Virus record (IMG/VR): IMGVR_UViG_3300010373_000062 | Location: 1-47,747 of that record | Reading direction: 5' to 3' (one strand) | Length of the DNA stretch: 47,747 nt | Origin: a virus | Part shown: positions 1,873 through 46,067 of the stretch, one piece after another | Position numbering within the stretch: position 1 is the stretch's first letter | How the letters are laid out: the number at the start of each line of letters is the position of its first letter | Notes under the pieces: generated by a model | Told to the model about the DNA's origin: nothing | Databases searched by the model: none | What the model saw: the letters and a program-made list of their open reading frames with translations, nothing else | Translations under genes and position numbers: made by a program

Positions 1873-2487
1873 TTAGCCCGCAGTCACCCACGCCAGCTCC
1901 GCCGCATTCAGATCATCCGCCGAGGGCGTGACGGACGAAGGCGCCATGTCGGCCGCCAGCGCTAGCGCCGCGCTCCATCGCAGCGCGGAGCGGGCCAACT
2001 CTCCCTTTCCGAACGTCGCGAACGTTGGCCGCGTCCGGTAATACCCGTCCTGCGCGGTCCGCAGCTTGCCGATCAGGGTTCCGGCCCCGCCCCGGCCGCA
2101 GCACGCGATGCCGACCAGGCCCAGCGTCTCCGGGCCGATCGAACCATCTGCCGTGGCGCCGACCGCCTGCTGTAGCAGGATCGCGCTCCGCCGCGGCGAG
2201 GCGGTCACGCCGAAATCGAACACCGCCAGATTGACCCCGGGCAACAGCCGATCGCCGCGCACCACGTTCCAGAACCACGCGCCATAGATCGCCGAGGCCT
2301 CATCGCGCGACAGGTGCAGCAGATCGTTTACGTCCGGCGCTTCGTCGCCATGATCTTCGCGCCAGGCGCGCAGGGTGGTGAGCGTAATCCCCATGTTGGT
2401 GGCCCCGCCGGGGTCGGCCGGATTCTGGACGAAGCCGCCCTCGCGCGCGAGCGTGAAGGCGAGACAGCGGTCGAAGGAGGAGGTCAT
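1873..2487 (-). CDS. endolysin, GH108 family N-acetylmuramidase
   Basis: A 204-residue lysin. The N-terminal domain carries the GH108 signature: REGGFVQNPADPGGATNMGIT at about residues 15-35, where the glutamate of the EGG motif is the expected catalytic acid. The C-terminal half (about residues 110-190, with GATADGSIGPETL) matches the peptidoglycan-binding domain usually paired with GH108. The enzyme would hydrolyse the MurNAc-GlcNAc bond of the cell wall at the end of the lytic cycle. No signal peptide or signal-anchor is present, so export needs the phage holin. A gene-free gap downstream separates it from the holin-like gene. Family assignment is confident; start is ATG. Confidence 0.92.
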   Translation of the reverse strand: MTSSFDRCLAFTLAREGGFVQNPADPGGATNMGITLTTLRAWREDHGDEAPDVNDLLHLSRDEASAIYGAWFWNVVRGDRLLPGVNLAVFDFGVTASPRRSAILLQQAVGATADGSIGPETLGLVGIACCGRGGAGTLIGKLRTAQDGYYRTRPTFATFGKGELARSALRWSAALALAADMAPSSVTPSADDLNAAELAWVTAG

Positions 2488-2541: not shown

Positions 2542-2718
2542 TTAGACCCGCGTCCGCGACCCGGTGTGATACGCGCTCCCGCCCGGCCGCGCCCCGAACG
2601 CCGGGGTCAACACCATCGGGTCTGCGGTCGGCGCCAGGACGTGCCGCACCATCGGCCGAGCCGGCCCGGCGCAGCCCGCCAGGGCCAGCGCCAGAATCAG
2701 AATGCCGAGCGCAGCCAT
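2542..2718 (-). CDS. Rz1-like small lipoprotein overlapping the upstream gene
   Basis: A 58-residue protein. It has a hydrophobic signal of 15 residues with lipobox LALAGC (Cys16), then a proline-containing mature part of about 42 residues that includes GPARPMV and TPAFGARPGG. Its ATG lies inside the last 22 bases of the membrane-protein gene at 2697-3110, in another frame. Small size, lipobox and overlap with an upstream lysis gene are the marks of outer-membrane spanin subunits (Rz1 type). The upstream partner, however, has its membrane segment at the C-terminus and not the N-terminus of a typical Rz. I chose this ATG because longer versions of the frame start with an arginine-rich, non-protein-like stretch. 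Confidence 0.65.
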   Translation of the reverse strand: MAALGILILALALAGCAGPARPMVRHVLAPTADPMVLTPAFGARPGGSAYHTGSRTRV

Positions 2719-3110
2719 GCCCACGCCTGACCGGCCAGCCATTGAACGTGCGTCGAAAGCAGTCCTCCCACCCCGGCCCCGAGCCCGGAGCCGATCAGCA
2801 GGGTCCGCAGCGGGCGGGAAATCAGGAAGTTGGCGACCCGGCCGGCGATGACGATATTCGCGATGGTCGGCCGCATCCGCTCCACGCAAGCCTTCACATC
2901 CCGCATTTCCTGAGTGAGCAGCCCGAGCGCCAGGCGATCCGTGTTCCGGTCATCGCCGAGCTGCTTCAGGTCGGCCTTGATTTCGCACACGTCGGCGCGG
3001 GTGTCCGTCATCTGCTGCGCGATTTGGCCCTGAGCCGCAGCCGAATCCCGCTGCGCCTCGGCCATGTCCCGCATCATGGCGACCAGCCCGGCTTCCTCGG
3101 CGGCGGTCAT
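2697..3110 (-). CDS. coiled-coil protein with C-terminal membrane segments (XhlA-like holin accessory)
   Basis: A 137-residue protein. Residues 1-80 are polar and heptad-like (MRDMAEAQRDSAAAQGQIA, then TRADVCEIKADLKQLG). Hydrophobic stretches follow at about 84-96 and 103-120. A cytoplasmic coiled coil followed by a C-terminal membrane anchor recalls XhlA-type holin accessory proteins. It heads the lysis cluster and overlaps the lipoprotein gene by 22 bp. It could also be a noncanonical inner-membrane spanin partner of that lipoprotein. Topology is clear; the family name is tentative. Confidence 0.65.
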   Translation of the reverse strand: MTAAEEAGLVAMMRDMAEAQRDSAAAQGQIAQQMTDTRADVCEIKADLKQLGDDRNTDRLALGLLTQEMRDVKACVERMRPTIANIVIAGRVANFLISRPLRTLLIGSGLGAGVGGLLSTHVQWLAGQAWAWLRSAF

Positions 3111-3229
3111 GTCATGGGGATTCCTTTTCGGACTTGCCGGGCCTCGCGTGGCGTGAGACGGTGCGCGGCCGGGTCAGCCTTGGCCGCCGCGCTTGCGACG
3201 GTCCCTGCGATCAGTCGGACGCGCGGGTC

Positions 3230-4354
3230 ATGAACAGGTCCACATCTCTCTACTTGGACGCGACACGCTTCATCGCGGCCCTGCTGGTGTTCGCGGACCA
3301 TGCCTGCGGCAGCCGGATATCGGGTGGGTTCGGCTGGCAACTCGCGGACTATGGGCCGGAAGCGGTGGCGGTGTTCTTCGTCCTGTCCGGCTTCGTGATC
3401 GCCCACGCAACCGCCTCGCGCGAATTGTCGCCGCAGTCCTATGCGGTGGCGCGCGGCGCCCGGATTTACTCGGTGGCGCTCCCGGCGCTGGTGTTCACCG
3501 CGATAGCCGACGCGATTGGCCGGTCCGTGAGCCCCGCCCTGTATTCCGGCCCCTGGCACGCCGCCCTCGATTGGCACTTCCTCGGGGCCGCTGCCTTCGT
3601 CAACGAATTATGGACGGTCAGCTTCAACCCGGGGTCGGACTGGTCCTATTGGTCGCTGGGCTACGAGGTCTGGTACTACGCGATCTTCGGGGCGCTGGCG
3701 TTCGCGCCGCGGCGCTTCGGGTTGCTGGCCGCCGCCGGGCTGCTGCTGTTGGTCGGGCCCAGCATCGCTGCGCTGTTCCCGCTTTGGCTGGTCGGCGTTG
3801 GCGCCTATCGGGTGTGCACGCGCCATCCGATGGGGCGAACGGCCGGCCTGCTGCTGTTCCTCGGCTCGCTCGCGGCATGGGGCGCCTACGAGGTCATGGC
3901 CTGGCGCCACGGGCGCTTCCTGCTACGCCAGCCCGAAATGCTGGTCTGGCTGAAACGGCCCGAGTTACCACAGTACTACGTCGTGGGGCTGGCCTTCGCG
4001 GGCAGCCTGATCGGGTTCCGCTCGGCATCCGAGTGGATCGAGCCTTTCGCTGCGCGCCATCGTTTCGCCGCCCTGCGCTGGGCCGCTGGCGCGACGCTCT
4101 CGATCTACCTGTTCCATGAACCGCTGCTTCGGCTACTCGCGACGTTGAATCCGTGGCCGCCCGGTTCCTGGCGCGGTCGGACGCTGGTGCTGGGCGGGAC
4201 GCTGATCGTGGTGTTCGCGCTGGCCGAGCTAACCGAGCGGCGCAAGGGCGCGTGGCGGCGCGGCATTCTGGCCTTGGTCGAGCGTGCCAAGGTCGGCGCA
4301 CATTCCCGTGCGGTAGCGAAATTGTCCTCCCCAGCGAGCGAAACGGGCGTTTAG
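3230..4354 (+). CDS. OafA-type membrane O-acyltransferase (acyltransferase 3 family), moron
   Basis: A 374-residue polytopic membrane protein with about ten hydrophobic segments. Arg13 and His24 form the R-X10-H motif of acyltransferase-3 enzymes (ATRFIAALLVFADH), and FFVLSGFVI follows at residues 49-57, another hallmark. Known relatives move acetyl or other acyl groups onto O-antigen, exopolysaccharide or peptidoglycan; the phage-borne ones alter O-antigen of lysogens. The gene runs against all neighbouring late genes and is followed 34 bp later by a PEP-CTERM gene, so the two look like a moron transcribed from the prophage. The ATG at 3230 is chosen because it puts the first helix at the N-terminus; an upstream ATG at 3134 would add 32 residues unlike the family. 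The SD is weak and no promoter is obvious. Acyl donor and target are unknown. Confidence 0.88.
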   Translation: MNRSTSLYLDATRFIAALLVFADHACGSRISGGFGWQLADYGPEAVAVFFVLSGFVIAHATASRELSPQSYAVARGARIYSVALPALVFTAIADAIGRSVSPALYSGPWHAALDWHFLGAAAFVNELWTVSFNPGSDWSYWSLGYEVWYYAIFGALAFAPRRFGLLAAAGLLLLVGPSIAALFPLWLVGVGAYRVCTRHPMGRTAGLLLFLGSLAAWGAYEVMAWRHGRFLLRQPEMLVWLKRPELPQYYVVGLAFAGSLIGFRSASEWIEPFAARHRFAALRWAAGATLSIYLFHEPLLRLLATLNPWPPGSWRGRTLVLGGTLIVVFALAELTERRKGAWRRGILALVERAKVGAHSRAVAKLSSPASETGV

Positions 4355-4388
4355 ATGCGTAGCCGGCTCTGAACCCGGAGAACCGTCC

Positions 4389-4931
4389 ATGCCCCGCCTG
4401 ATCCCGCTCGCCGCCGCCGTCGCCTTGTGGTTTGCGCCAGGGGGTGCGAGGGCGGATGTCGTCAGTTACACGGCAGCAGTGGTCTCAAGCTCGATGGGGC
4501 CGCAGGAATTTGCTTTCGCGTTGCCGGACGGTCCGTTGGCCGACGCCGCCGTGACGCTGGACGGAGATTTCGGCCCGTTTCACTACAACGGGACGGTGGA
4601 GCTCGGGACGGATCGCCCCTTCGCCTCTGGCGGAGACGGCGGGGGACAGGTCGGCGCAGTCGTCTATAACCTATACGAGACCATCGCCGAATCTGCTAGC
4701 CAGCTTATTGTCGATGTTCTTGGGAACTACTATTTCCCATCCGCTCCGTTACCGGAGTTCGACGGCTTCTTTTCCGGCAGCCTCACAGTCACATACTCTT
4801 ACAATCAGGTGGCCGCGGCGCTGGCTTCGTCCGACCCTTCCGCTCCGCTGCCCGAGCCTTCAACCGTACCGTTACTCGCGGCCGGCCTGCTCGGCATCAT
4901 CCTGATCCGGCACGCTAGGGCTGGATATTGA
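4389..4931 (+). CDS. PEP-CTERM secreted protein, exosortase substrate, moron
   Basis: A 180-residue protein with a clear signal peptide (residues 1-22, ending GGARA before DVVSY). The body is glycine-, serine- and tyrosine-rich. The C-terminal sorting signal comprises the motif PEPS near residue 155, a hydrophobic helix (TVPLLAAGLLGIILI) and a basic end (RHARAGY). This tripartite signal is recognised by exosortase (EpsH/XrtA) in bacteria that make exopolysaccharide or biofilm, where the protein is cleaved and anchored outside. A good ribosome site (CGGAGAA) precedes the ATG. The gene follows the acyltransferase by 34 bp, probably in one transcript. Its last 17 bp overlap the tail of the convergent spike gene. 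The phage part seen encodes no exosortase, so the host must supply it. The body matches no domain I can name. Confidence 0.85.
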   Translation: MPRLIPLAAAVALWFAPGGARADVVSYTAAVVSSSMGPQEFAFALPDGPLADAAVTLDGDFGPFHYNGTVELGTDRPFASGGDGGGQVGAVVYNLYETIAESASQLIVDVLGNYYFPSAPLPEFDGFFSGSLTVTYSYNQVAAALASSDPSAPLPEPSTVPLLAAGLLGIILIRHARAGY

Positions 4932-7900
4932 ACTGGAACGAGCCGCAGCCGTTCACGCTGCCATCGCTCACGGAATAGAGCGGCCCTGGCGTCGTCAGGA
5001 AGCTGTTCTTCGCCGCACGGGACGGGAAGTAGAGCGGGTTGCGCCGCCGCGCGTCCAGACGTAGGCACAGTTTCAGCGCATCGGCCGGCGCGCCAGGCAC
5101 CTTCGACCATTGCGCCAGCGCCGCGATATGAACGGTGGTGTAATAGGTCGGATCAGGTCCACCGGACCCGCTCGGCAGTCCCGACCAACTGTTCTGGCAA
5201 TAGGGCTGCTGATTGAGCGGGTTGGCGAACGATTTGACGCTTGGATTTGTCTGTTGTGGCGCCGTGCCGCCCTCCGGGATTGGCGCGTACGGTGTCGCGC
5301 CGAGCAAAAGGCCGAAGCCCGCCGCAACTGGCGCGTTGTTTGCCCCGTTGGCGAGTGCAAGCCAATTCGGATAGGTGTTCGCTTCGGTGCGGACCGTGTT
5401 GCTCGATCCCGCCGCGGCGGTGCTATCGGTCTCGACGTGATAGAGGTCGCTGTAACCCTCCGAGCCGCCATAGTCACTGTCGAACCATTTGTAGAAATTG
5501 ATCGGGACGCCATTAAGCCATGCGGCGAATCCTGGCGGCGCATCGTCCTGTGAGGCGGGGTGCGACGTGAACAAGACCTGGTGCCCGAGCATCCACGGCG
5601 CGAGGTCCGATCCCTGCGATCCGGCTGGTGGGTAATCCCATGTTCCGAGCCCATACCCCTTCGGATAGGTCGCGGCATACCAGGGCGTGAAATCGCCCAA
5701 CCACGCCGCGGTATCCGCAAAGCAATCCGTGATGAAGGGCCGCAGCGGGTGACCTGGCGGCATCACCTGATTGACCTGGGTCAGGTTCTTCAGGCAGAAC
5801 GCCGCGGCGCGCAGTTGAGTATCGGCCGAAGGCACGCTGGCGATGCCGGCATAGGTCTTCCCGTTCCCGAACGGGTTGACCTGATTGCGATACGCCGGAG
5901 CGGTGCTGGCGATCTGTGTGCACCACAGTTCCAGCATGTCTTCCCGGAATATCTCGCGCCCGGTTTTCAGGAACGCAGGGAACCCAGGATTGGGAATGTG
6001 AGAGCTGTTGGCGATGCCGACATAGTTATCCCAGCGCCACGCCCCGTCGGCGCGATTCACCTTGGGCCGATCGGCGATCCCCGTGCCGTTCACGGTATAG
6101 AACTTCACGGTGGACTTGGTGCTCCCGCTCGGCAGATTGGGATACGTGCCGCCGGCGCGGTCAGGCCCAAGATTGCTGATGATCGGATAGCCCGTCGTCT
6201 CATCGTGGAACGTGTGCGGCTGGTCAAACCACTGGCACGCGTGGATCAGCATCTCTTGATGCGAGTTCGGGTCATCGAACTTGTAGAAGCTGTGGAGCTG
6301 ATCGCCGACAAATCCGCCATAGCGATTGTCGATCGAGCCGTCGCCGAATTGCTGCAACACGTTCCACGGCGTGCCAATGCCCACCAGCGCCGCATTCGGA
6401 ATATAGTTGTGTGTCACCGATGGGTTGCGCGCGAACGGCACCGCATCATTCTGCGAGTAGTGTGGCGTAGCCCCCGACTTCTGGAACAGATAGGTGAAGT
6501 CATGGCCCACCCCGATGTTCGGGCGCGCCGTGCCGGCGACGGGATCATACCAAAAGGCGCGACAGTCTGATCCGACACCGAGTATCTTGCTGTTGGCGAA
6601 GGTCATCGCCGCCGGGATCATCGTGATGGTCCCGGTGCCCTGATCGGTAAACGGCACCGATATGGACTGCCAGTCGGTCACGCCGCCGTCGCTGATATTC
6701 GTCCCCGTTCCGGTCGGGGCGGTGCTGCCGCTCACGCCCCCGGCTCGGGTCATGTAAAGCACGCCGTTGGACTCGACATACGTGCGCCCGGCCGCGTAAT
6801 TCGTTCCCGTAAGCCAATGCGTCATCGCGCTTTGGTCGATCGCTGGCCCCAAGAAAATCCCGCCCGAGTTGAGATACCGTTCTGCCGCGAGATACACGGT
6901 ATGGTCCGGTGGATCGCTGGCGCCGAAGTGCGGCACCACCGGGAAATACACCTGCGGCGCCGGCGAAAGTCCGGCAGGAAGCGTTCCGGTGGACGTGAAC
7001 ATCACCCCGATTCCACCGGTGATCGCCGTGGGCGTCGGGTTGGGCGGCGAGCCTGTCCAGAACGCATCATTGGGCGCGCCAAGTGCGGTCGGAATGATAA
7101 TGCGCCCGTGCGTCACATCGAAATTGGCATTGGGGATCGTGGTATTCCCCACCCAGCGCGGATCGTTCGGACCGCCGGCTGCGCCGATCAGCGCATCCCC
7201 GTTGGCGCGGTCGCGGCACTCATAGATGCCGGCGTGGCGGTCCTGCTGGCCGGTGGTAAGATAGCCGGGCAGCGATCCGGGAATGGTGCCGCCGGCGAAC
7301 GGGCCGGCCGTGTTCGGCTCTAGGCCAACAAATTCGACCAGATACGGTCCCGTGCCAGGCCCCGTCGCGGAGAGTGCGGTAACGTGCAGGCGAGGCTTGA
7401 TATACTGGTGCACGGCCCCATCGCTGTGCCGGGTCGCATAGGCGATGACATCCCACTTCGTAACCTTCGGCGAGGCGCGCAGCGTGGTCCACATGCCGGC
7501 AGGGTTCGTGCCGATCGAGCCTGCCATGTAATCGCTGAACGTCGCCAGCACGTGGTTGACGTTGACCTCAAACCAATCGACCGCCGGATTCGTGCTGGTA
7601 AGCTGCGCCTCGAAATCGCCGCCGTAGATTTTCAGATAGATGTTGCTGTGCGCCGCGAGTTGCGCCGGGGTCGCGCCACCGGAATGACTCGGTGCACCTG
7701 ATGCGGTGCGAATGCTGAAAACGTGCTGGTCATAGGTGCTGCCGCTCGCCGCCGCGAATGTACCATCGGCGGTGAATGACAGAACCGCCAGCCGCAGGCT
7801 GCCATCCGAATAATAGACCTCGCCGTCCGTCTGACACGCCGATACCGGCACTCCGCCAGGCGTATAGACGACGGCACGAGTTCCGGCCGGCACGTCGCCC

Positions 7901-8085
7901 TTGGCGAAGGGCTGTGCCATCTCGATCATCGGGCTGGTCGCGCTGAACGTCGAGAAGTTGGTCAGGGTCAGCGGAACATTGAGCGGCCCCGGCGGCAGAG
8001 GATCAGTGCTGGTGGCATCGGTCAGCAGCGCACCGGAGGCTGATGACAGCATCAGCCGGCCATTGAATGTGAGCGCGTGTGCCAT
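4915..8085 (-). CDS. large tailspike with RIFT-barrel polysaccharide-lyase-like domain
   Basis: A 1056-residue protein. Residues 1-25 (MAHALTFNGRLMLSS and GALLTDA) match the start of the neighbouring esterase spike and probably form the shared virion-attachment module. Residues about 50-120 (MAQPFAKGDVPAGTRAVVY, then YYSDGSLRLAVLSF) resemble the N-terminal RIFT barrel of PcRGLX/YetA-like proteins, a family linked to pectin-type lyases. The rest is aromatic- and Asn/Gly-rich with many WF and HxxxH-like patches, as expected of a catalytic carbohydrate-binding fold. I infer a receptor-binding depolymerase; its substrate is unknown. The 3' end overlaps the convergent PEP-CTERM gene by 17 bp, and its start lies 2 bp after the esterase gene. 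The coding frame is certain, the enzymatic role is not. Confidence 0.8.
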   Translation of the reverse strand: MAHALTFNGRLMLSSASGALLTDATSTDPLPPGPLNVPLTLTNFSTFSATSPMIEMAQPFAKGDVPAGTRAVVYTPGGVPVSACQTDGEVYYSDGSLRLAVLSFTADGTFAAASGSTYDQHVFSIRTASGAPSHSGGATPAQLAAHSNIYLKIYGGDFEAQLTSTNPAVDWFEVNVNHVLATFSDYMAGSIGTNPAGMWTTLRASPKVTKWDVIAYATRHSDGAVHQYIKPRLHVTALSATGPGTGPYLVEFVGLEPNTAGPFAGGTIPGSLPGYLTTGQQDRHAGIYECRDRANGDALIGAAGGPNDPRWVGNTTIPNANFDVTHGRIIIPTALGAPNDAFWTGSPPNPTPTAITGGIGVMFTSTGTLPAGLSPAPQVYFPVVPHFGASDPPDHTVYLAAERYLNSGGIFLGPAIDQSAMTHWLTGTNYAAGRTYVESNGVLYMTRAGGVSGSTAPTGTGTNISDGGVTDWQSISVPFTDQGTGTITMIPAAMTFANSKILGVGSDCRAFWYDPVAGTARPNIGVGHDFTYLFQKSGATPHYSQNDAVPFARNPSVTHNYIPNAALVGIGTPWNVLQQFGDGSIDNRYGGFVGDQLHSFYKFDDPNSHQEMLIHACQWFDQPHTFHDETTGYPIISNLGPDRAGGTYPNLPSGSTKSTVKFYTVNGTGIADRPKVNRADGAWRWDNYVGIANSSHIPNPGFPAFLKTGREIFREDMLELWCTQIASTAPAYRNQVNPFGNGKTYAGIASVPSADTQLRAAAFCLKNLTQVNQVMPPGHPLRPFITDCFADTAAWLGDFTPWYAATYPKGYGLGTWDYPPAGSQGSDLAPWMLGHQVLFTSHPASQDDAPPGFAAWLNGVPINFYKWFDSDYGGSEGYSDLYHVETDSTAAAGSSNTVRTEANTYPNWLALANGANNAPVAAGFGLLLGATPYAPIPEGGTAPQQTNPSVKSFANPLNQQPYCQNSWSGLPSGSGGPDPTYYTTVHIAALAQWSKVPGAPADALKLCLRLDARRRNPLYFPSRAAKNSFLTTPGPLYSVSDGSVNGCGSFQFNIQP

Positions 8086-8087
8086 GC

Positions 8088-9785
8088 TCAGGTCACCGCG
8101 ATGGAGCCGTCGGTCGGCTGCAAGGGCAACCCGAGCGGATCGCTTGTGGTGTACAGCAGCGGATACGGCGGGAGCGCGCCGTTGTCATAGATGCAGTTGG
8201 TGATATCCGGGAACGTCGAAGCATTGTGCGTCCCGTCATAATTCTGGCCGGTCGTATTCGGGGTGCCGCCGAGATACTTCACATAGACGGTGCCACCGGG
8301 CCATGTGCCGAGGTCGATCAGCACGTTGGTCCCACTGAGCGTGACCGATGCCGGCGTAAGGTAGGCACCCGTGCCAGGCCCGCATCCCGTTGCGAAATTG
8401 TCCGTGGACACATAGAACCCGGTCGGATTGCCGCCGGCGGCGGTTTGCAGCGCGGTGCCGCCGTCCTGGACGATCGGCAGCGTGATGACCGCGCCCGCGC
8501 GAGACACACCGACCGCATTGATCTTCGGTCCGGCGGAGCCGTGCGGATAGGTGGCCGGAACAAGCCAGTGGAGCAAATCCTGCGTGACGCGGCGCAGCGC
8601 GCGCACCGCCGAAGTCGGCGTGCTGGTGCTGCCGGAATTGTCCATGTGCAGCGTGTCGCCAGTGGCGCGCACCAGATCGGTCGTCATCTCGCCGGTGGTG
8701 ACCGCCCATCCAAGCGCCTGCTTCGCCGCGGTCCATTCGATCTGCGCCTGTCGTACCATCTCGATATTCGGCGCGACGGTCGGATCGACGTTGCCGATGA
8801 TCGGCATGCAGATGTGCAGTGTGGCGTGCGTGCGGCCAAACGGAGACACCAGCGCAAGCCACCCGTTATACCAAGTGTCAAGTTCGGTCAGATAGGTCGA
8901 GAGAGTGGTGGCGGGCGTTCCCGCGCCGCTATCATTCTCGCCCTGGTGCCAGCAGACCGCTTCTACGTCGCCGGGATAGATCGTGCTGAGCAAGCCGGAA
9001 ACGTCCGTGCCGCTGGTGCCCCCGCCGGTTGCTGCGGTGTACTTCGTGTAATTGGTGCCACCGGGGGACCATGTTCCGATCCCCACGCCACTGATCGCCA
9101 GCGGCAGGATCGCGACAGGCACGTTGCCGCCGAGGCCAGCCACCAACTCCCGGATGAAGGCGTATCCGGGGTCGGCCACCAGCAGATCGCCGCCGACCGC
9201 GCTGCCGCCGGGGTAGCTGCCGAAGCCATTGTAGGCCCAGCCCAGGTCGGCATAGATGCGGCCGTGCTTGGTGGTGTGCGCCGCGGTGTACTGTTCCGTG
9301 CCCACACCGCCGCCGACCAGTCCCTGACTCGACATGGTGGCGACCATGTTCGATTGCCCGGACATGACGATGCAGACCCCGACGCCCCACATATGGGCGC
9401 CAGACCATGCGACGCCCGGGGTGAGTTTGTCCCGCACGCGCAGCCGGTAATTGTCGCCTTGCGGGATAGCGAGCGCGGTGCCGGTCGCACTACCCCCGCT
9501 CGCGGTGAACGAGGCGAAGTCGGACCAGTCCACCACCGTTGCGGCCGAAGTGAAGTCCTCGACGCGCCACTGGAACATCGTCGGATCGGCGCCGGTGTAG
9601 CTGGCGGTGAAGGTCAGCGCGCGCGTGGTTCCGCCGGCCGCGCGCTGCGCCACCGCCAGATTCGCCGGCTCGTTGACCGATGCGATGGATGACGCGCTGC
9701 TGCCGCCACTGCTCGACGCTCCATCGGTCAGCAGCGCCCCTCCCGCCGTCAGCAGGCGTCCGGCGAAGGTGAGGGCGTGCGCCAT
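8088..9785 (-). CDS. tailspike with SGNH sialate O-acetylesterase-like (SASA) domain
   Basis: A 565-residue protein. After an attachment module shared with the next spike (MAHALTFAGRLL, GALLTDG) and a beta-rich segment, an SGNH esterase domain spans about residues 135-420. Block I is MSGQSNMV with Ser145, block III is WHQGEND at 279-285, and block V is DTLH with Asp377 and His380, so the full Ser-Asp-His triad is present. Relatives include sialate O-acetylesterases and other carbohydrate acetylesterases. The C-terminal part is beta-rich. I infer that it deacetylates a host surface glycan during adsorption. The ATG at 9785 is used because it aligns with the paralogous N-terminus; a frame extension of 20 residues upstream overlaps the preceding gene. 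It lies one base after the fibre gene. Confidence 0.88.
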   Translation of the reverse strand: MAHALTFAGRLLTAGGALLTDGASSSGGSSASSIASVNEPANLAVAQRAAGGTTRALTFTASYTGADPTMFQWRVEDFTSAATVVDWSDFASFTASGGSATGTALAIPQGDNYRLRVRDKLTPGVAWSGAHMWGVGVCIVMSGQSNMVATMSSQGLVGGGVGTEQYTAAHTTKHGRIYADLGWAYNGFGSYPGGSAVGGDLLVADPGYAFIRELVAGLGGNVPVAILPLAISGVGIGTWSPGGTNYTKYTAATGGGTSGTDVSGLLSTIYPGDVEAVCWHQGENDSGAGTPATTLSTYLTELDTWYNGWLALVSPFGRTHATLHICMPIIGNVDPTVAPNIEMVRQAQIEWTAAKQALGWAVTTGEMTTDLVRATGDTLHMDNSGSTSTPTSAVRALRRVTQDLLHWLVPATYPHGSAGPKINAVGVSRAGAVITLPIVQDGGTALQTAAGGNPTGFYVSTDNFATGCGPGTGAYLTPASVTLSGTNVLIDLGTWPGGTVYVKYLGGTPNTTGQNYDGTHNASTFPDITNCIYDNGALPPYPLLYTTSDPLGLPLQPTDGSIAVT

Positions 9786-9786
9786 G

Positions 9787-12117
9787 TCAGAATTGCACGC
9801 CGATCCAGGGCAGGAACCCGCTGTTTTCCGTCGCGCCGCTGGCATTGGCCGGCAGGGTTCCGGTATAGGTTCCGGTCAGAAGCCATCCCAGCTTGAATCC
9901 CGTTGTCGTGTTATTCAGCGTCGAGGCACCCATGAGGGTTGAGCCGTAAATGCTGTTGGTCGGGCTGATGGCGAGAAGAGATGTAGAGCCCACTGTATCG
10001 GCCTGGAATGCCAGCCAGTACCACTTGTTGGGTGTGAGAGTGAGCGCGAGCGCCGCGGTCTGATCGCCGGTCGCCGACGATGCGATGCTGGAAAACACCA
10101 CCTGACCGAGCAGTGATGTACCAGTGGTGCCAGGCGACATGCTGCCATTGTCAGAATAGACGCCGACCACGGCATTCCAGGCCGTCGATCCGTTGGCGAC
10201 GGAAATATGGAAGCCAACATTTACCGTGGGGAGCGACCCGGTGTAGAGGAACGGAACCCACGTGATGCGGCCGGCGACAGGTGCAGCAACATTGCTCCCC
10301 GCGATGAAGGAAGGGCCATACCATTTGCCGGTGATGTAGTTCGGAAGCGGAAGCGCCGATCCAGCCGCCTCCGCACCCCATGACGGGTTTGCGGACGGCC
10401 CTCCGGTGTGCAGCGCATACCCCGCCGTGCCCGGCGCCAGCACGGCCCATCCACTTGCACTGCGATACAGGATATCGCCCTGTGCCGAGCCCAGCATGGC
10501 ATCGAGTGCCGCCGAGACACTGGTGGCAGTCGGCGCCGCGGAGCTGCCCGAAACATTCGCCAGAAGCGTGTTATTGGCGACGGGCGCCAGGCCGCCGCTC
10601 GCCGCGATCTGCCCCACCGTGATGGCGGTCGTGCCGACCGTCACGCTGCCCGGCGCGTTGGTGCACTGCCAGAACGTGTTCGCCAGCGTCGAGCCGGCCC
10701 GCACCCCGATCAGCGCCCCGCCGAACTCCCCGGCCTGATCCATCGAGGGGTCGCGGGTCAGGATGTAGGGGTGCGTCCCGTCGCCGGCCTGCGTGACGAG
10801 ATACAGCCCGTTGTTGGCCCCGGTCGCCTCGTTCTTCACCAGCACGCGCTGCCCGGCCGCCGGGCCGCCGCCGTCCACGGCCAGCGCAGCATTCGCGGTC
10901 GCGGTCAGGGTCGCGCCGACCCCCGCCGTGCCGTTCGCGTAGGTATTCGCGGCGAGCGCCGCGGTAGTGGCATAGTCGGCCGAGGGGCGCGACGCCGCGG
11001 TGTTCGCCAGCACGCCGAGGCCGGCACCGCCCGACGAATAGCCGAGCGCGCCGGAGAAGGTCGGACCGCCGGGGATGACGTTCCCCGTGCTGTCGTTCGC
11101 CAACAGGATCGTCGCGGTGCTCACCGGGCTCCGGCCCGCCCCGCCGCGCTGCGTCGCATAGTTGGTCCCGTCCGACACGAGGCGAGCGCCGGAGTTCGGC
11201 GACAGGACCAGCGTGGCCGCGCCGTCGATCGTGCTGGTGGCCGGCGTGATCGTGACCGTTCCGGTGCTGACATTCTCCACATCGATATACCATGTCGCGC
11301 CGAACCCGGTGGTTCCGGCCTGCGGCAGCGACACCGCGACCGCGCCGGAATTGGAGAAGGTGATCAGCTTGGCTAGGTCGCCGGTCACGATCGCATAGGA
11401 CGTGCCGGACTGCGCGTTGATGGTGACCGCGGGCGTGCCACTGCCGGAAGGTGCAGCCCAAGTCGGGTCCGCACCGGCGCCGCCCGAGGTAAGCACGTTC
11501 CCGGATGTGCCCGGCGCCAGCACGGCCCATCCGCTCGCACCACGCTCCAAAAGGGCGCCACGGGTGTTGCCCAGCGCCTCATCGAGCAGCGCCGAGACCG
11601 TGGTGGCAACCGGAACCGCGCTCGCGCCGGACGTGTTCGCCAGCAGGTTCTTGTCGGCGATCGGAGACAGGCCGGCGCCAGCCGCCGCCCACGTCGGGTC
11701 GGCGCCCGCGCCCCCGGAGGTCAGCACGTTGCCGGACGTACCTGGTGCGATGATCGCCCATCCGGACGCGCCGCGTTCCAGGATGGCGCCGCGCGTGTTG
11801 CCCACGGCGGCATCAATCAGCCCCGTGAGCGTTGTATCGCCGGCCGCGGCCGTGGCGCCAGTGGCGTTGCCGACGAGATGCCCGTTCGCGATGGTAGGTG
11901 CGGGGCCGGCTGGACCGGTCGGGCCGGCTGGACCGGTCGGGCCGGCGGCACCAGTCGGCCCCGTCGCACCAGTCGGGCCAACGAACGCGCTCGATGGCAC
12001 GCGCGACGGCACCGCGTTGAACGTTGTCCCGCCATCTGGCGACGTGAACACCGGAATCTGCGAATTGGCGGCTGGCGTGCCGGCCGGCGTGAAGTCCTGG
12101 AACTTGGTGCCGCTCAT
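9787..12117 (-). CDS. tail fibre with collagen-like stalk and internal repeats
   Basis: A 776-residue fibre. Residues about 47-73 are collagen-like Gly-X-Y triplets (GPTG, GPAG), predicting a trimeric stalk. Three long repeats follow: NLLANTSG, ALLDEALGNTRGALLERGAS, GWAVLAPGTSGNVLTSGG. They centre near residues 95-150, 160-225 and 520-590, the last diverged. The C-terminal 170 residues (GKWYGPSFIAG to the end) look like a globular beta-sandwich receptor-binding tip. It starts with MSGTKFQDFTPAG, unlike the attachment modules of the other spikes. It is probably a structural fibre on the short tail. The recent or concerted nature of the repeats is visible in the DNA at about 10374-10530, 11460-11600 and 11690-11820. 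Confidence 0.85.
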   Translation of the reverse strand: MSGTKFQDFTPAGTPAANSQIPVFTSPDGGTTFNAVPSRVPSSAFVGPTGATGPTGAAGPTGPAGPTGPAGPAPTIANGHLVGNATGATAAAGDTTLTGLIDAAVGNTRGAILERGASGWAIIAPGTSGNVLTSGGAGADPTWAAAGAGLSPIADKNLLANTSGASAVPVATTVSALLDEALGNTRGALLERGASGWAVLAPGTSGNVLTSGGAGADPTWAAPSGSGTPAVTINAQSGTSYAIVTGDLAKLITFSNSGAVAVSLPQAGTTGFGATWYIDVENVSTGTVTITPATSTIDGAATLVLSPNSGARLVSDGTNYATQRGGAGRSPVSTATILLANDSTGNVIPGGPTFSGALGYSSGGAGLGVLANTAASRPSADYATTAALAANTYANGTAGVGATLTATANAALAVDGGGPAAGQRVLVKNEATGANNGLYLVTQAGDGTHPYILTRDPSMDQAGEFGGALIGVRAGSTLANTFWQCTNAPGSVTVGTTAITVGQIAASGGLAPVANNTLLANVSGSSAAPTATSVSAALDAMLGSAQGDILYRSASGWAVLAPGTAGYALHTGGPSANPSWGAEAAGSALPLPNYITGKWYGPSFIAGSNVAAPVAGRITWVPFLYTGSLPTVNVGFHISVANGSTAWNAVVGVYSDNGSMSPGTTGTSLLGQVVFSSIASSATGDQTAALALTLTPNKWYWLAFQADTVGSTSLLAISPTNSIYGSTLMGASTLNNTTTGFKLGWLLTGTYTGTLPANASGATENSGFLPWIGVQF

Positions 12118-39440: not shown

Positions 39441-39631
39441 ACACTCCCTCCCCGCATCTCAAACATCTGCCGCATGACGCCCGGCACCGTCTCGATCCAC
39501 TCCACGGCCTGCGCCGCGGTCAGATGCGGCAGAGCGGTGCGATAGGCGCACAGGAATGCGTTGGCCGCGGTCTGTACCGCGTCGTACGGGGATGGAGTCG
39601 GGCGGACCATGGGGGGATCGAGGCGGGTCAT
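39437..39631 (-). CDS. small protein between nuclease and methyltransferase
   Basis: A 64-residue mostly helical protein (PSPYDAVQTAANAFLCAYRT, LTAAQAVEWIETVPGVMRQM). Function unknown. Starts ATG in a four-base overlap (ATGA) with the methyltransferase stop. Confidence 0.6.
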   Translation of the reverse strand: MTRLDPPMVRPTPSPYDAVQTAANAFLCAYRTALPHLTAAQAVEWIETVPGVMRQMFEMRGGSV

Positions 39632-40509
39632 GCCGCGTCACCAAATAGTGGCGCGTCACCGACGATGCGCTCCCTCGCGTGCGCGGCGTGGCCGGAAGAT
39701 AATTCGATGCCGATGCACTCACGCCCAAGCCGATCAGCGACAAGGCCGGTGGTGCCGACTCCGAAGAATGGATCAATCACGGTGTCTCCGGTGCGAGTGC
39801 CGGCACGGATGCACCGCTCGGCAATCTCTGGCGGCATCGTCGCGAAATGCTGATCAACGTACGGCGACGGACTGACGGACCAAACCGAGCGCGCGCGGCG
39901 GGTATCGCGCACGATGATTGTTCTGTCCGCCGACGGTCGCTTTCTAGCCGAGTTCGGATCATGAGTGGCTGGGTCGCGGAACGCTTTTCCGGCCTTTCTT
40001 GCCAATCCAGGATAAAGCGACGGCTCCTCGATAGCCTCCCAATCAAAATAATATGACGGTTGCTTCGATAGAAGATAAATCATTTCGTGGGAGGTCACGG
40101 TGCGATCTTTGACTGGCGCGGGCGTAGTGCGAGGCTTGTTCCACACTATTTCGTCTCTCAGCCACCAGCCGTCCCCGCGCAGCGCAATGGCGACCATGGC
40201 CGGGATCATCAGTCTATCCTTGACCTTGTGGTCTCCAACGCCTGCGGAATAACTGTCGCCCAGGTTCAGCCACAACGTTCCGTCATCGCGCATCACCCGG
40301 CGCAATTCATGAAACACAGCAACCAAATTCGCGACATACTCGTCCGGATGCCGCTCTGTGCCGATCTCTTTGTGTTTATCCGGATGGCCCTGTGGCAAGT
40401 AGGAGCGAAGGCCGAAATACGGCGGCGAGGTCACGCAACACTGCACGCTGCCATCGGGCAACGTGCAGAGCACAGTCCGGCAATCGCCGTGGATCACCCG
40501 GACGCTCAC
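39628..40509 (-). CDS. DNA methyltransferase, TSPPY class (N4-cytosine or N6-adenine)
   Basis: A 293-residue enzyme. TSPPY at 27-31 is the catalytic motif, and DPFFGVGTTG at 246-255 the AdoMet-binding loop, placed after the catalytic motif (beta-type order). NLGDSYSAGVG and WNKPRTTPAPVKDRTV are further family features. It could protect phage DNA from host restriction; the target base is not deducible by eye. GTG at 40509 is chosen because it overlaps the upstream stop (GTGA); a GTG nine bases earlier is also in frame. Confidence 0.85.
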   Translation of the reverse strand: MSVRVIHGDCRTVLCTLPDGSVQCCVTSPPYFGLRSYLPQGHPDKHKEIGTERHPDEYVANLVAVFHELRRVMRDDGTLWLNLGDSYSAGVGDHKVKDRLMIPAMVAIALRGDGWWLRDEIVWNKPRTTPAPVKDRTVTSHEMIYLLSKQPSYYFDWEAIEEPSLYPGLARKAGKAFRDPATHDPNSARKRPSADRTIIVRDTRRARSVWSVSPSPYVDQHFATMPPEIAERCIRAGTRTGDTVIDPFFGVGTTGLVADRLGRECIGIELSSGHAAHARERIVGDAPLFGDAA

Positions 40510-41036
40510 GGCAGCCACCCGATCACCGGCGAACCGGAATGTCCGTGTTCAAATACGAACCACGCGTATGCGATGGAGCCGCCCTTCGCCGGAACGTCCG
40601 TATCGCCCGGCGGCATCGAGACGCGGCGGCTGCTTACCCATACGCGCGCGAGCGGCGTGGTCTGGAGCAGGGTGCGCCGCTTCTGGCCTTCCAACAGCGC
40701 GAGGCGGGCGAGGATGGCGACCTTGTAAGTCGCCTTAGTGAGCGCGTGCCGAATGAAGGGCTCGATTAGCCTGTAAGGCGGGTTGGAAATGATGTTGTGT
40801 ATATCGGCGCACTCGGTTGAGAAGAAGTCCGCTGGCTGGCCGTAGCCGCGATCGGCAATATCGGAGCCGACGCAGTGCTGTCCCCACAGGGCCATGATCC
40901 TAGGGATATTGCCCGCTCCGCAACACGGGTCCCATGACCGGCCATCGAACGACTCGACAGCCAGCAGCGCGTCCACAACCCAAGCAGGCTCTACGTACCA
41001 ATCTGCCGCCGCGCGCTCGTATCCCGAAGCTCTCAC
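40506..41036 (-). CDS. second DNA methyltransferase-like protein (NPPY class)
   Basis: A 176-residue protein. Motif I WDPCCGAGNIPRIM at 35-48 comes before motif IV IISNPPY at 82-88, the order of gamma-type N6-adenine methyltransferases. The N-terminus (YERAAADWYVEPAWVVDALL) is a small helical part, and no target-recognition domain is evident, so it is short. GTG at 41036 (GTGA overlap with the small membrane gene) is chosen; an ATG-started longer frame begins in another gene. It could be a solitary methylase or part of a two-subunit set with its neighbour. Confidence 0.78.
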   Translation of the reverse strand: MRASGYERAAADWYVEPAWVVDALLAVESFDGRSWDPCCGAGNIPRIMALWGQHCVGSDIADRGYGQPADFFSTECADIHNIISNPPYRLIEPFIRHALTKATYKVAILARLALLEGQKRRTLLQTTPLARVWVSSRRVSMPPGDTDVPAKGGSIAYAWFVFEHGHSGSPVIGWLP

Positions 41037-41167
41037 CACCACCCCGCCACGCACCCGAGGATCGCCGCCCATCCGGCGCCGGACACCCCGAGCCAGATCA
41101 CGACGCAGACCGCGAGGGGGAGACGGCGCGGGCAGCACGGGGCCTCCGTGATGCTGAGATGCGTCAC
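41033..41167 (-). CDS. 44-residue single-pass membrane protein
   Basis: A very short protein with one strong hydrophobic helix (LPLAVCVVIWLGVSGAGWAA) and a C-terminal GCVAGWW. GTG start overlapping the upstream stop (GTGA), and a GTGA overlap with the methyltransferase start. Length is exactly 44 codons plus stop. Function unknown. Confidence 0.55.
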   Translation of the reverse strand: MTHLSITEAPCCPRRLPLAVCVVIWLGVSGAGWAAILGCVAGWW

Positions 41168-45344: not shown

Positions 45345-45584
45345 TCAGGCGGCCTCGCCCGGGTGGGCGGTTCGGCTGCGCCGCACGGATTCGGCGATTT
45401 CCTCTAGCAACCCGAAGCTAACCTCGGGATGCCCCAAATCCTCGGCGCGAGCGACGATGCGATGCCAAAAGCGAGCCGGGATGCCGTTGTGGCGCCATTC
45501 GTTAACAGCCTTGGTATCGGCGCCGGTCAGGGCAGATGCGCCCCGCTTCCCGCCGATCAGCTCGATGATCTGCGACGTGTCCAT
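45345..45584 (-). CDS. Cro-like/CII-like HTH protein, first gene of the leftward operon
   Basis: A 79-residue protein. IIELIGGKRGASALTGADTK followed by AVNEWRHNGIPARFWHRIVA is a short HTH of the Cro/YdaS-like type used by temperate phages against CI. It is divergent from the repressor, with paired operators between. It lacks a clear ribosome site; the suggested promoter places the start of transcription at or near the ATG, so a leaderless message is possible. Confidence 0.72.
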   Translation of the reverse strand: MDTSQIIELIGGKRGASALTGADTKAVNEWRHNGIPARFWHRIVARAEDLGHPEVSFGLLEEIAESVRRSRTAHPGEAA

Positions 45585-45590
45585 ACACCA

Positions 45591-45619
45591 GCGGTAACAG
45601 AAAATCTGACGGCTTGCAA
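45591..45619 (-). promoter_or_regulatory. putative leftward early promoter with near-leaderless start
   Basis: On the minus strand TTGCAA (45614-45619), 17 bases, then TACCGC (45591-45596). Transcription would start about at the A of the ATG at 45584. The -35 hexamer is itself palindromic. One CAGAAAA operator lies inside the spacer. Weak -10 box. Confidence 0.35.
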
Positions 45620-45636
45620 CACAGAAAAACTCTCTG
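45598..45636. promoter_or_regulatory. repressor operators O1 and O2 in the divergent region
   Basis: CAGAAAATCTG (45598-45608) and CAGAAAAACTCTCTG (45622-45636) are two palindrome-like sites whose centres are about 26 bp apart. Both carry the half-site CAGAAAA that recurs over the rightward promoter at 46264-46287. They sit between the Cro-like and repressor genes and should bind the repressor or Cro-like protein. Confidence 0.6.
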
Positions 45637-45671
45637 GCCGGGATATCCCCGCCGAGGGCAGCGTTTGCCTA

Positions 45672-46067
45672 GTGGACGAGGTAACCCCCAAGCGCGTGGC
45701 GGCTCGGTTGCGCGCCTTTATGGCTGAGCGTGGTCTAGAGACCGTGCAGGCTCTTGCTGACGCGGCGGGGGCCGAGAGGAATGCCGTCTCAAATTGGTTG
45801 AACGGCTACAACCTGCCCAGGGTCCCTGAAATCGCTCGGTTGTGCGAGCGGACTGGCCTGACTCTAGATTGGGTTTACCGGGGGATTCCGGACAATCTGC
45901 CGCTCACGCTGGGTATCCGGCTGGCCGCCAGAATGCAGGGAGAGAGCGTTCCGCCGGCATCTTCGGCGGCTTCGGGCGCGGCCGGGACGGAAGCTGCTTC
46001 GGAGGCTCGCCGGTCATCTCCTCGCCGGTCATCGGCAAGGGCGCGTAAACGGGAATCGGCCACTTAG
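45672..46067 (+). CDS. CI-like repressor, short form without cleavage domain
   Basis: A 131-residue protein. The HTH is clear: RVAARLRAFMAERGLETVQA, LADAAGAERNAVSNWLNGYN, then LPRVPEIARLCERTGLTLDW. The remainder is a linker and a Ser/Ala/Arg-rich tail (SSAASGAAGTEAASEARRSS); no S24/LexA-type Ser-Lys domain is present, so RecA-driven self-cleavage is unlikely. GTG at 45672 is used; an ATG at 45721 would cut into the HTH. It should keep the prophage silent by binding the CAGAAAA sites. Induction would need another route, such as an antirepressor. Confidence 0.78.
   Translation: MDEVTPKRVAARLRAFMAERGLETVQALADAAGAERNAVSNWLNGYNLPRVPEIARLCERTGLTLDWVYRGIPDNLPLTLGIRLAARMQGESVPPASSAASGAAGTEAASEARRSSPRRSSARARKRESAT

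Follow-up and report, generated by a model that had tools for sequence, protein, structure and literature searches.

An acyltransferase-3 gene followed by a PEP-CTERM gene among the late genes of a phage

The two genes and their surroundings

We analysed the viral record IMGVR_UViG_3300010373_000062 of IMG/VR over its whole length of 47,747 bp (hereafter the window). Family matches show that the window encodes a capsid protein (phrog_334), portal (phrog_156), terminase, helicase, primase, methyltransferase and endolysin. The locus of interest consists of two plus-strand genes that are separated by 34 bp and, as the earlier note had described, stand alone within minus-strand late genes (Table 1). 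The first encodes an acyltransferase-3 protein and the second a secreted protein with a PEP-CTERM tail; with capsid, portal, terminase and endolysin genes in the same record, the acyltransferase-3 gene is located inside a phage genome. The immediate flanks, both on the minus strand, are the genes for a 137-aa protein on one side and for a 1056-aa protein on the other. The latter is convergent with the pair, and its gene is overlapped by the 3' end of the PEP-CTERM gene for 17 bp; profile searches with the 1056-aa protein gave no informative family match. Both frames of the pair have coding-like codon-position GC, with third-position values of 0.85 (gene 1) and 0.72 (gene 2), while the codon-position GC of the antisense shadow ORFs is not coding-like. 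The spacing of the genes, together with a good ribosome-binding site, had been read previously as a sign of a single transcript. This holds for gene 2, which is preceded by a GGAG, but the start of gene 1 has no good ribosome site, and a consensus search detected neither a promoter nor a terminator for the pair.

Table 1. Features in and around the pair, and the repressor-like gene (window positions).
Feature	Position	Strand	Basis
Endolysin, glycosyl hydrolase 108	1873..2487	-	PF05838; phrog_315
Possibly holin-like protein of 137 aa with a hydrophobic segment at the C-terminus	2697..3110	-	Sequence, family search
Divergent intergenic region, likely site of the pair's promoter	3111..3229	.	Position; no sigma-70 consensus match
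Gene 1, acyltransferase-3, 374 aa, predicted membrane O-acyltransferase	3230..4354	+	PF01757, phrog_3333, RX10H and RXXR
R13-X10-H24 motif of acyltransferase-3	3266..3301	+	Translation; invariant columns; motif definition PMC9558356
RXXR motif (R75, R78)	3452..3463	+	Translation; alignment; PMC9558356
GGAG ribosome-binding site of gene 2	4377..4380	+	Sequence; 8 nt before ATG
Gene 2, 180 aa, secreted PEP-CTERM protein, predicted substrate of an exosortase	4389..4931	+	TIGR02595, PF07589 borderline, composition, codon-position GC
Sec signal peptide, residues 1-22	4389..4454	+	Read from sequence, hydropathy
PEP-CTERM tail, residues 155-180: PEP, hydrophobic stretch, R/H-rich end	4851..4928	+	TIGR02595, PF07589
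Late gene for a 1056-aa protein, convergent with the pair; product probably of the tail or for host contact	4915..8085	-	Position only
Probable tail enzyme of 585 aa with a SASA acetylesterase domain	8088..9845	-	PF03629, 34.3 bits, over cut-off
Repressor-like regulator	45429..46067	+	phrog_2328, E=6e-13; sole hint of lysogeny

Gene 1 matches PF01757 at 68 bits (cut-off 31) and the O-acetyltransferase family phrog_3333 at E=3e-22, and has a remote similarity only to the O-antigen acetylase family phrog_6705 (E=2e-5). The R-X10-H and FFVLSGF motifs that had been assigned to it are both present, the latter at residues 49-55, and in an alignment of nine acyltransferase-3 proteins R13, H24, R75, R78, W141 and E146 are invariant. 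An R/K-X10-H motif in TM1 and an RXXR motif in the first cytoplasmic loop were found to be essential in OacA and OafA/OafB (PMC9558356). The homologues are 30-38% identical over the full length and have the same start residue, so that the start at 3230 agrees between the window (MNRSTSLYLDATR), L170 (MNKATSVYLDAVR) and L171 (MDKTTSLYLDVLR). Hydropathy analysis gives several merged hydrophobic segments, the family having about ten transmembrane helices. An SGNH domain was not matched in gene 1, a wide acyltransferase alignment gave no scannable stretch, and the collections searched contained no close bacterial relative.

For gene 2, both the signal peptide and the PEP-CTERM tail that had been proposed were confirmed. 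By inspection and hydropathy, the N-terminus, MPRLIPLAAAVALWFAPGGARA|D, resembles a Sec signal, while the C-terminus, PEPSTVPLLAAGLLGIILIRHARAGY, scores 19.9 bits against TIGR02595 (cut-off 16). The match to PF07589 is borderline, with 19.9 bits for the protein (cut-off 20.7) and 22.3 bits (E=1.2e-5) in a genome scan in which 2 of 50 records matched; PF07589 detects only 22% of TIGR02595 proteins (PMC1569441). The composition of the mature part is distinctive, since its 130 aa include a single K or R and no Cys, compared with 9.1% K+R in the other proteins of the window. PEP-CTERM proteins are typically low in basic residues and Cys (Haft 2006, PMC1569441), with N-terminal signals and no homology beyond the tail (PMC1569441). 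Close relatives of the gene 2 protein were not found among viral contigs, genome contigs, phages or plasmids, as expected given the diversity of PEP-CTERM ectodomains. Comparison of its ectodomain with those of other viral PEP-CTERM proteins gave nothing convincing, solved structures included no convincing relative, and a single-sequence structure prediction reached a pLDDT of 42. We rejected a role as a virion component, since neither tail nor capsid proteins would be expected to have a signal peptide and a membrane-spanning tail.

The phage, its relatives and its possible host

Many viral contigs from metagenomes encode capsid proteins with 34-71% identity to that of the window. Named relatives are Rhizobium phage RHph_Y1_10 (49%), a Paracoccus phage (44%) and, at approximately 33%, Burkholderia phages such as BcepIL02 and DC1; judged by the nearest of these, the host may be alphaproteobacterial. 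No prophages of this lineage were found in reference genomes with the capsid protein as query. The window contains no tyrosine integrase (one relative, G016, has one) and only one repressor-like gene, so that lysogeny of the phage is uncertain. Two DNA methyltransferase genes lie side by side in the early region (39628-41138).

Among 48 capsid relatives, most of which are fragments, acyltransferase-3 genes are absent and PEP-CTERM genes are present in G026 only. This record (L073 4958-11768) is a decaying prophage of the window lineage, next to which host-like DNA carries two PEP-CTERM genes and response regulators. We did not count it as a second PEP-CTERM phage, because it has a broken capsid gene and no portal, and because host-like genes surround its PEP-CTERM genes. 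G026 suggests that hosts of the window lineage use PEP-CTERM proteins.

Each half of the pair in other viral records

The ACYLTRANSFERASE half of the pair, i.e., the acyltransferase-3 gene alone, is an already known kind of phage cargo. Sf6 Oac and similar phage acyltransferase-3 enzymes acetylate the O-antigen and block superinfection (PMC9558356). Like Sf6 Oac, Sf101 OacB and the phiV10 enzyme, all O-antigen acetyltransferases, gene 1 is acyltransferase-3 phage cargo with RX10H and RXXR motifs; it differs from them in that a PEP-CTERM gene follows and in that the similarity is remote. A lone antisense acyltransferase-3 gene at the tail/lysis end is present in at least five other phages. One parallel in layout is Bradyrhizobium phage ppBdUSDA122-1 (OP596612), whose acyltransferase-3 gene likewise runs opposite to its neighbours, a tail fibre gene and a lysis amidase gene, but the two acyltransferases are 24% identical and that record has no PEP-CTERM gene. 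In G001, each of the two phages likewise has an antisense acyltransferase-3 gene flanked by tail and lysis genes; the antisense gene adjoins endolysin or tail genes in L170 and L171 and tail-fibre genes in SEN34 and AH07. In TL-2011b the gene is upstream of the endolysin. G001 is a single 86-kb record that holds two related phages (L094 and L096), each with its own integrase; these have different acyltransferase-3 genes at the same antisense site.

PEP-CTERM genes were collected by sweeps of IMG/VR with generic PEP-CTERM tails and one match as queries, which returned at least 31, then 13 further and then 5 records. PEP-CTERM genes are therefore present in at least 49 other viral records and, in several, plainly within phage modules, while some of the contigs may include host flanks. 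The layout of the window, apart from the acyltransferase, recurs in a group of four near-identical prophage records of isolate genomes (IMGVR_UViG_2931122664_000002 and three others; the L128 group). As in the window, an antisense gene for a 180-aa PEP-CTERM protein has holin-like and endolysin genes on one side and a large gene on the other; the large gene, here of 1241 aa and beside baseplate J, is overlapped at its 3' end by 37 bp. The L128 group differs from the window in lacking an acyltransferase-3 gene, in having tail genes of the baseplate-J type and in an ectodomain without detectable homology to that of gene 2. Of the groups in which the PEP-CTERM gene, as in the window, converges on a large late gene, one also has the endolysin alongside; in L134, L159 and L163 it overlaps genes of 749-1680 aa by 20-58 bp. 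Since these large convergent genes, including the 1056-aa gene of the window, have no informative family match, the label "tail" for them is inferred from position. The PEP-CTERM gene faces a tail-fibre operon in L173 and L176. In L126 (4003-6150) and L154 (1182-3566) it is away from tail genes, directly 3' of a phrog_62 helicase gene in the former and downstream of a related DNA helicase gene in the latter. In L140 and L141 it lies in a helicase/exonuclease/Sak4 region. In L160 the gene (7479-8102) is located between an integrase-like gene and a gene for a 2586-aa protein with DarB-like antirestriction matches. Tandem pairs of PEP-CTERM genes occur in L136 (5398-7266), L127 (3935-5641), L173 (3595-5090) and L176 (3584-5090), which are from different metagenomes.

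Exosortase (PF09721) was absent from all 37 viral records tested, window included. Compared with the bacterial PEP-CTERM/exosortase (EpsH) system defined by TIGR02595/PF07589 (PMC1569441), gene 2 has the same signal peptide, PEP motif and hydrophobic stretch, and an ectodomain with few basic residues and no Cys. It differs in being phage-borne and the second of two genes rather than a single-gene operon, and the window record differs in having no exosortase.

The recurrence of the pair in other phages, on which the earlier note had placed weight, was not found: none of the 49 PEP-CTERM viral records listed has an acyltransferase-3 gene, and none of ten acyltransferase-3 phage records has a PEP-CTERM gene.

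Interpretation of the pair

Surface-modifying phage genes determine which phages a lysogen resists, and the well-known cases mostly alter sugars. We consider it probable that the pair is lysogenic-conversion cargo, with two morons in a single hot spot: one for a glycan O-acyltransferase of the acyltransferase-3 type, the other for a surface protein that the host exosortase would sort. Their products would alter adsorption. The hot spot would lie between the tail-region and lysis genes of a podovirus-like phage. Expressed in a lysogen, the acyltransferase-3 would transfer acyl groups through the inner membrane to an envelope sugar of the host and so alter a receptor. The gene 2 protein would cross the inner membrane via its signal peptide and be retained by the PEP-CTERM helix, after which cleavage by a host exosortase would release it to the outer surface or the exopolysaccharide. 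Given that the phage records have no exosortase, any processing of the tail would presumably be done by the host's enzyme. Jointly or separately, the two products would change which phages adsorb to the cell. The earlier designation as a surface-modification moron thus stands by analogy, as each half recurs in phages and Sf6 Oac provides a precedent, but it does not extend to the pair as a unit, which was not seen again. The further proposal that the two genes together coat or modify the surface was a guess and is not supported as stated, the pair not having been found elsewhere. The finding would be a surface-modifying moron of a known type plus an under-described, recurring PEP-CTERM component.

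How far the two genes belong together can be read in two ways. The chances are about even that they are independent morons in the same insertion hot spot, mere neighbours without a shared pathway or target: each half occurs alone at such sites elsewhere, and both occur together only in the window among about sixty records examined, though the common strand, the 34-bp gap and the ribosome site of gene 2 suggest one transcript. Joint action, in which the target of the acyltransferase would be a glycan attached to or surrounding the PEP-CTERM protein, or else an exopolysaccharide that this protein retains at the surface, appears rather unlikely. The tandem arrangement argues for it, as do the requirement for both PEP-CTERM proteins and exopolysaccharide in Zoogloea floc formation (PMC9012009) and the link of the PEP-CTERM system to exopolysaccharide loci (PMC1569441). 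Against it, no other record examined contains the pair, so that a shared function gains no support from conservation.

Two further readings would deprive gene 2, or the whole pair, of the proposed role. It is improbable that the C-terminus of gene 2 is an ordinary membrane anchor with a chance likeness to PEP-CTERM, as in a membrane-anchored superinfection-exclusion protein that is not processed by exosortase. The PF07589 score at the cut-off and the short basic end would fit such an anchor, but the TIGR02595 cut-off is exceeded, the match has E=1.2e-5 in the whole record and is rare among relatives, and the ectodomain composition fits PEP-CTERM proteins. Less credible still is that the pair is passive host DNA or an assembly artefact, i.e., bacterial genes in a viral contig without phage function. 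G026, with its broken capsid gene and its PEP-CTERM genes in apparent host DNA, provides a precedent for this, but in the window phage late genes lie on both sides of the pair, one of them overlapping it by 17 bp, and the collections searched yielded no close bacterial relative of either gene.

In the literature on PEP-CTERM/exosortase and phages we found no description of phage PEP-CTERM cargo, which is weak evidence as most subscription journals were outside its scope; it seems that recurrent phage cargo of this kind, a surface protein with an exosortase tag, has not been described before. We suggest, tentatively and with somewhat more doubt than confidence, that PEP-CTERM proteins constitute a widespread, overlooked class of lysogenic-conversion proteins in phages whose hosts have an exosortase. 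The host enzyme would display them, their genes would often lie antisense where the tail genes end, and the version in the window would also modify a surface glycan. If phages do supply substrates to the host exosortase, they would reach the cell surface by a new route. The setting is that of soil, floc and biofilm bacteria, in which most PEP-CTERM proteins have no known purpose. Phage-borne PEP-CTERM genes, which can be deleted or expressed singly, would offer a handle on that purpose, and could show whether phage adsorption or aggregation is governed by surface proteins that depend on exosortase.

The SASA-domain protein encoded beyond the 1056-aa gene may be relevant to the receptor. Removal of acetyl groups by a tail enzyme and addition of acyl groups by a moron would be consistent with control of a single receptor, since acetylation blocks the tail enzyme of Sf6 (PMC9558356). 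In L163, the neighbour that corresponds to the SASA gene of the window has a GDSL-lipase match at the cut-off.
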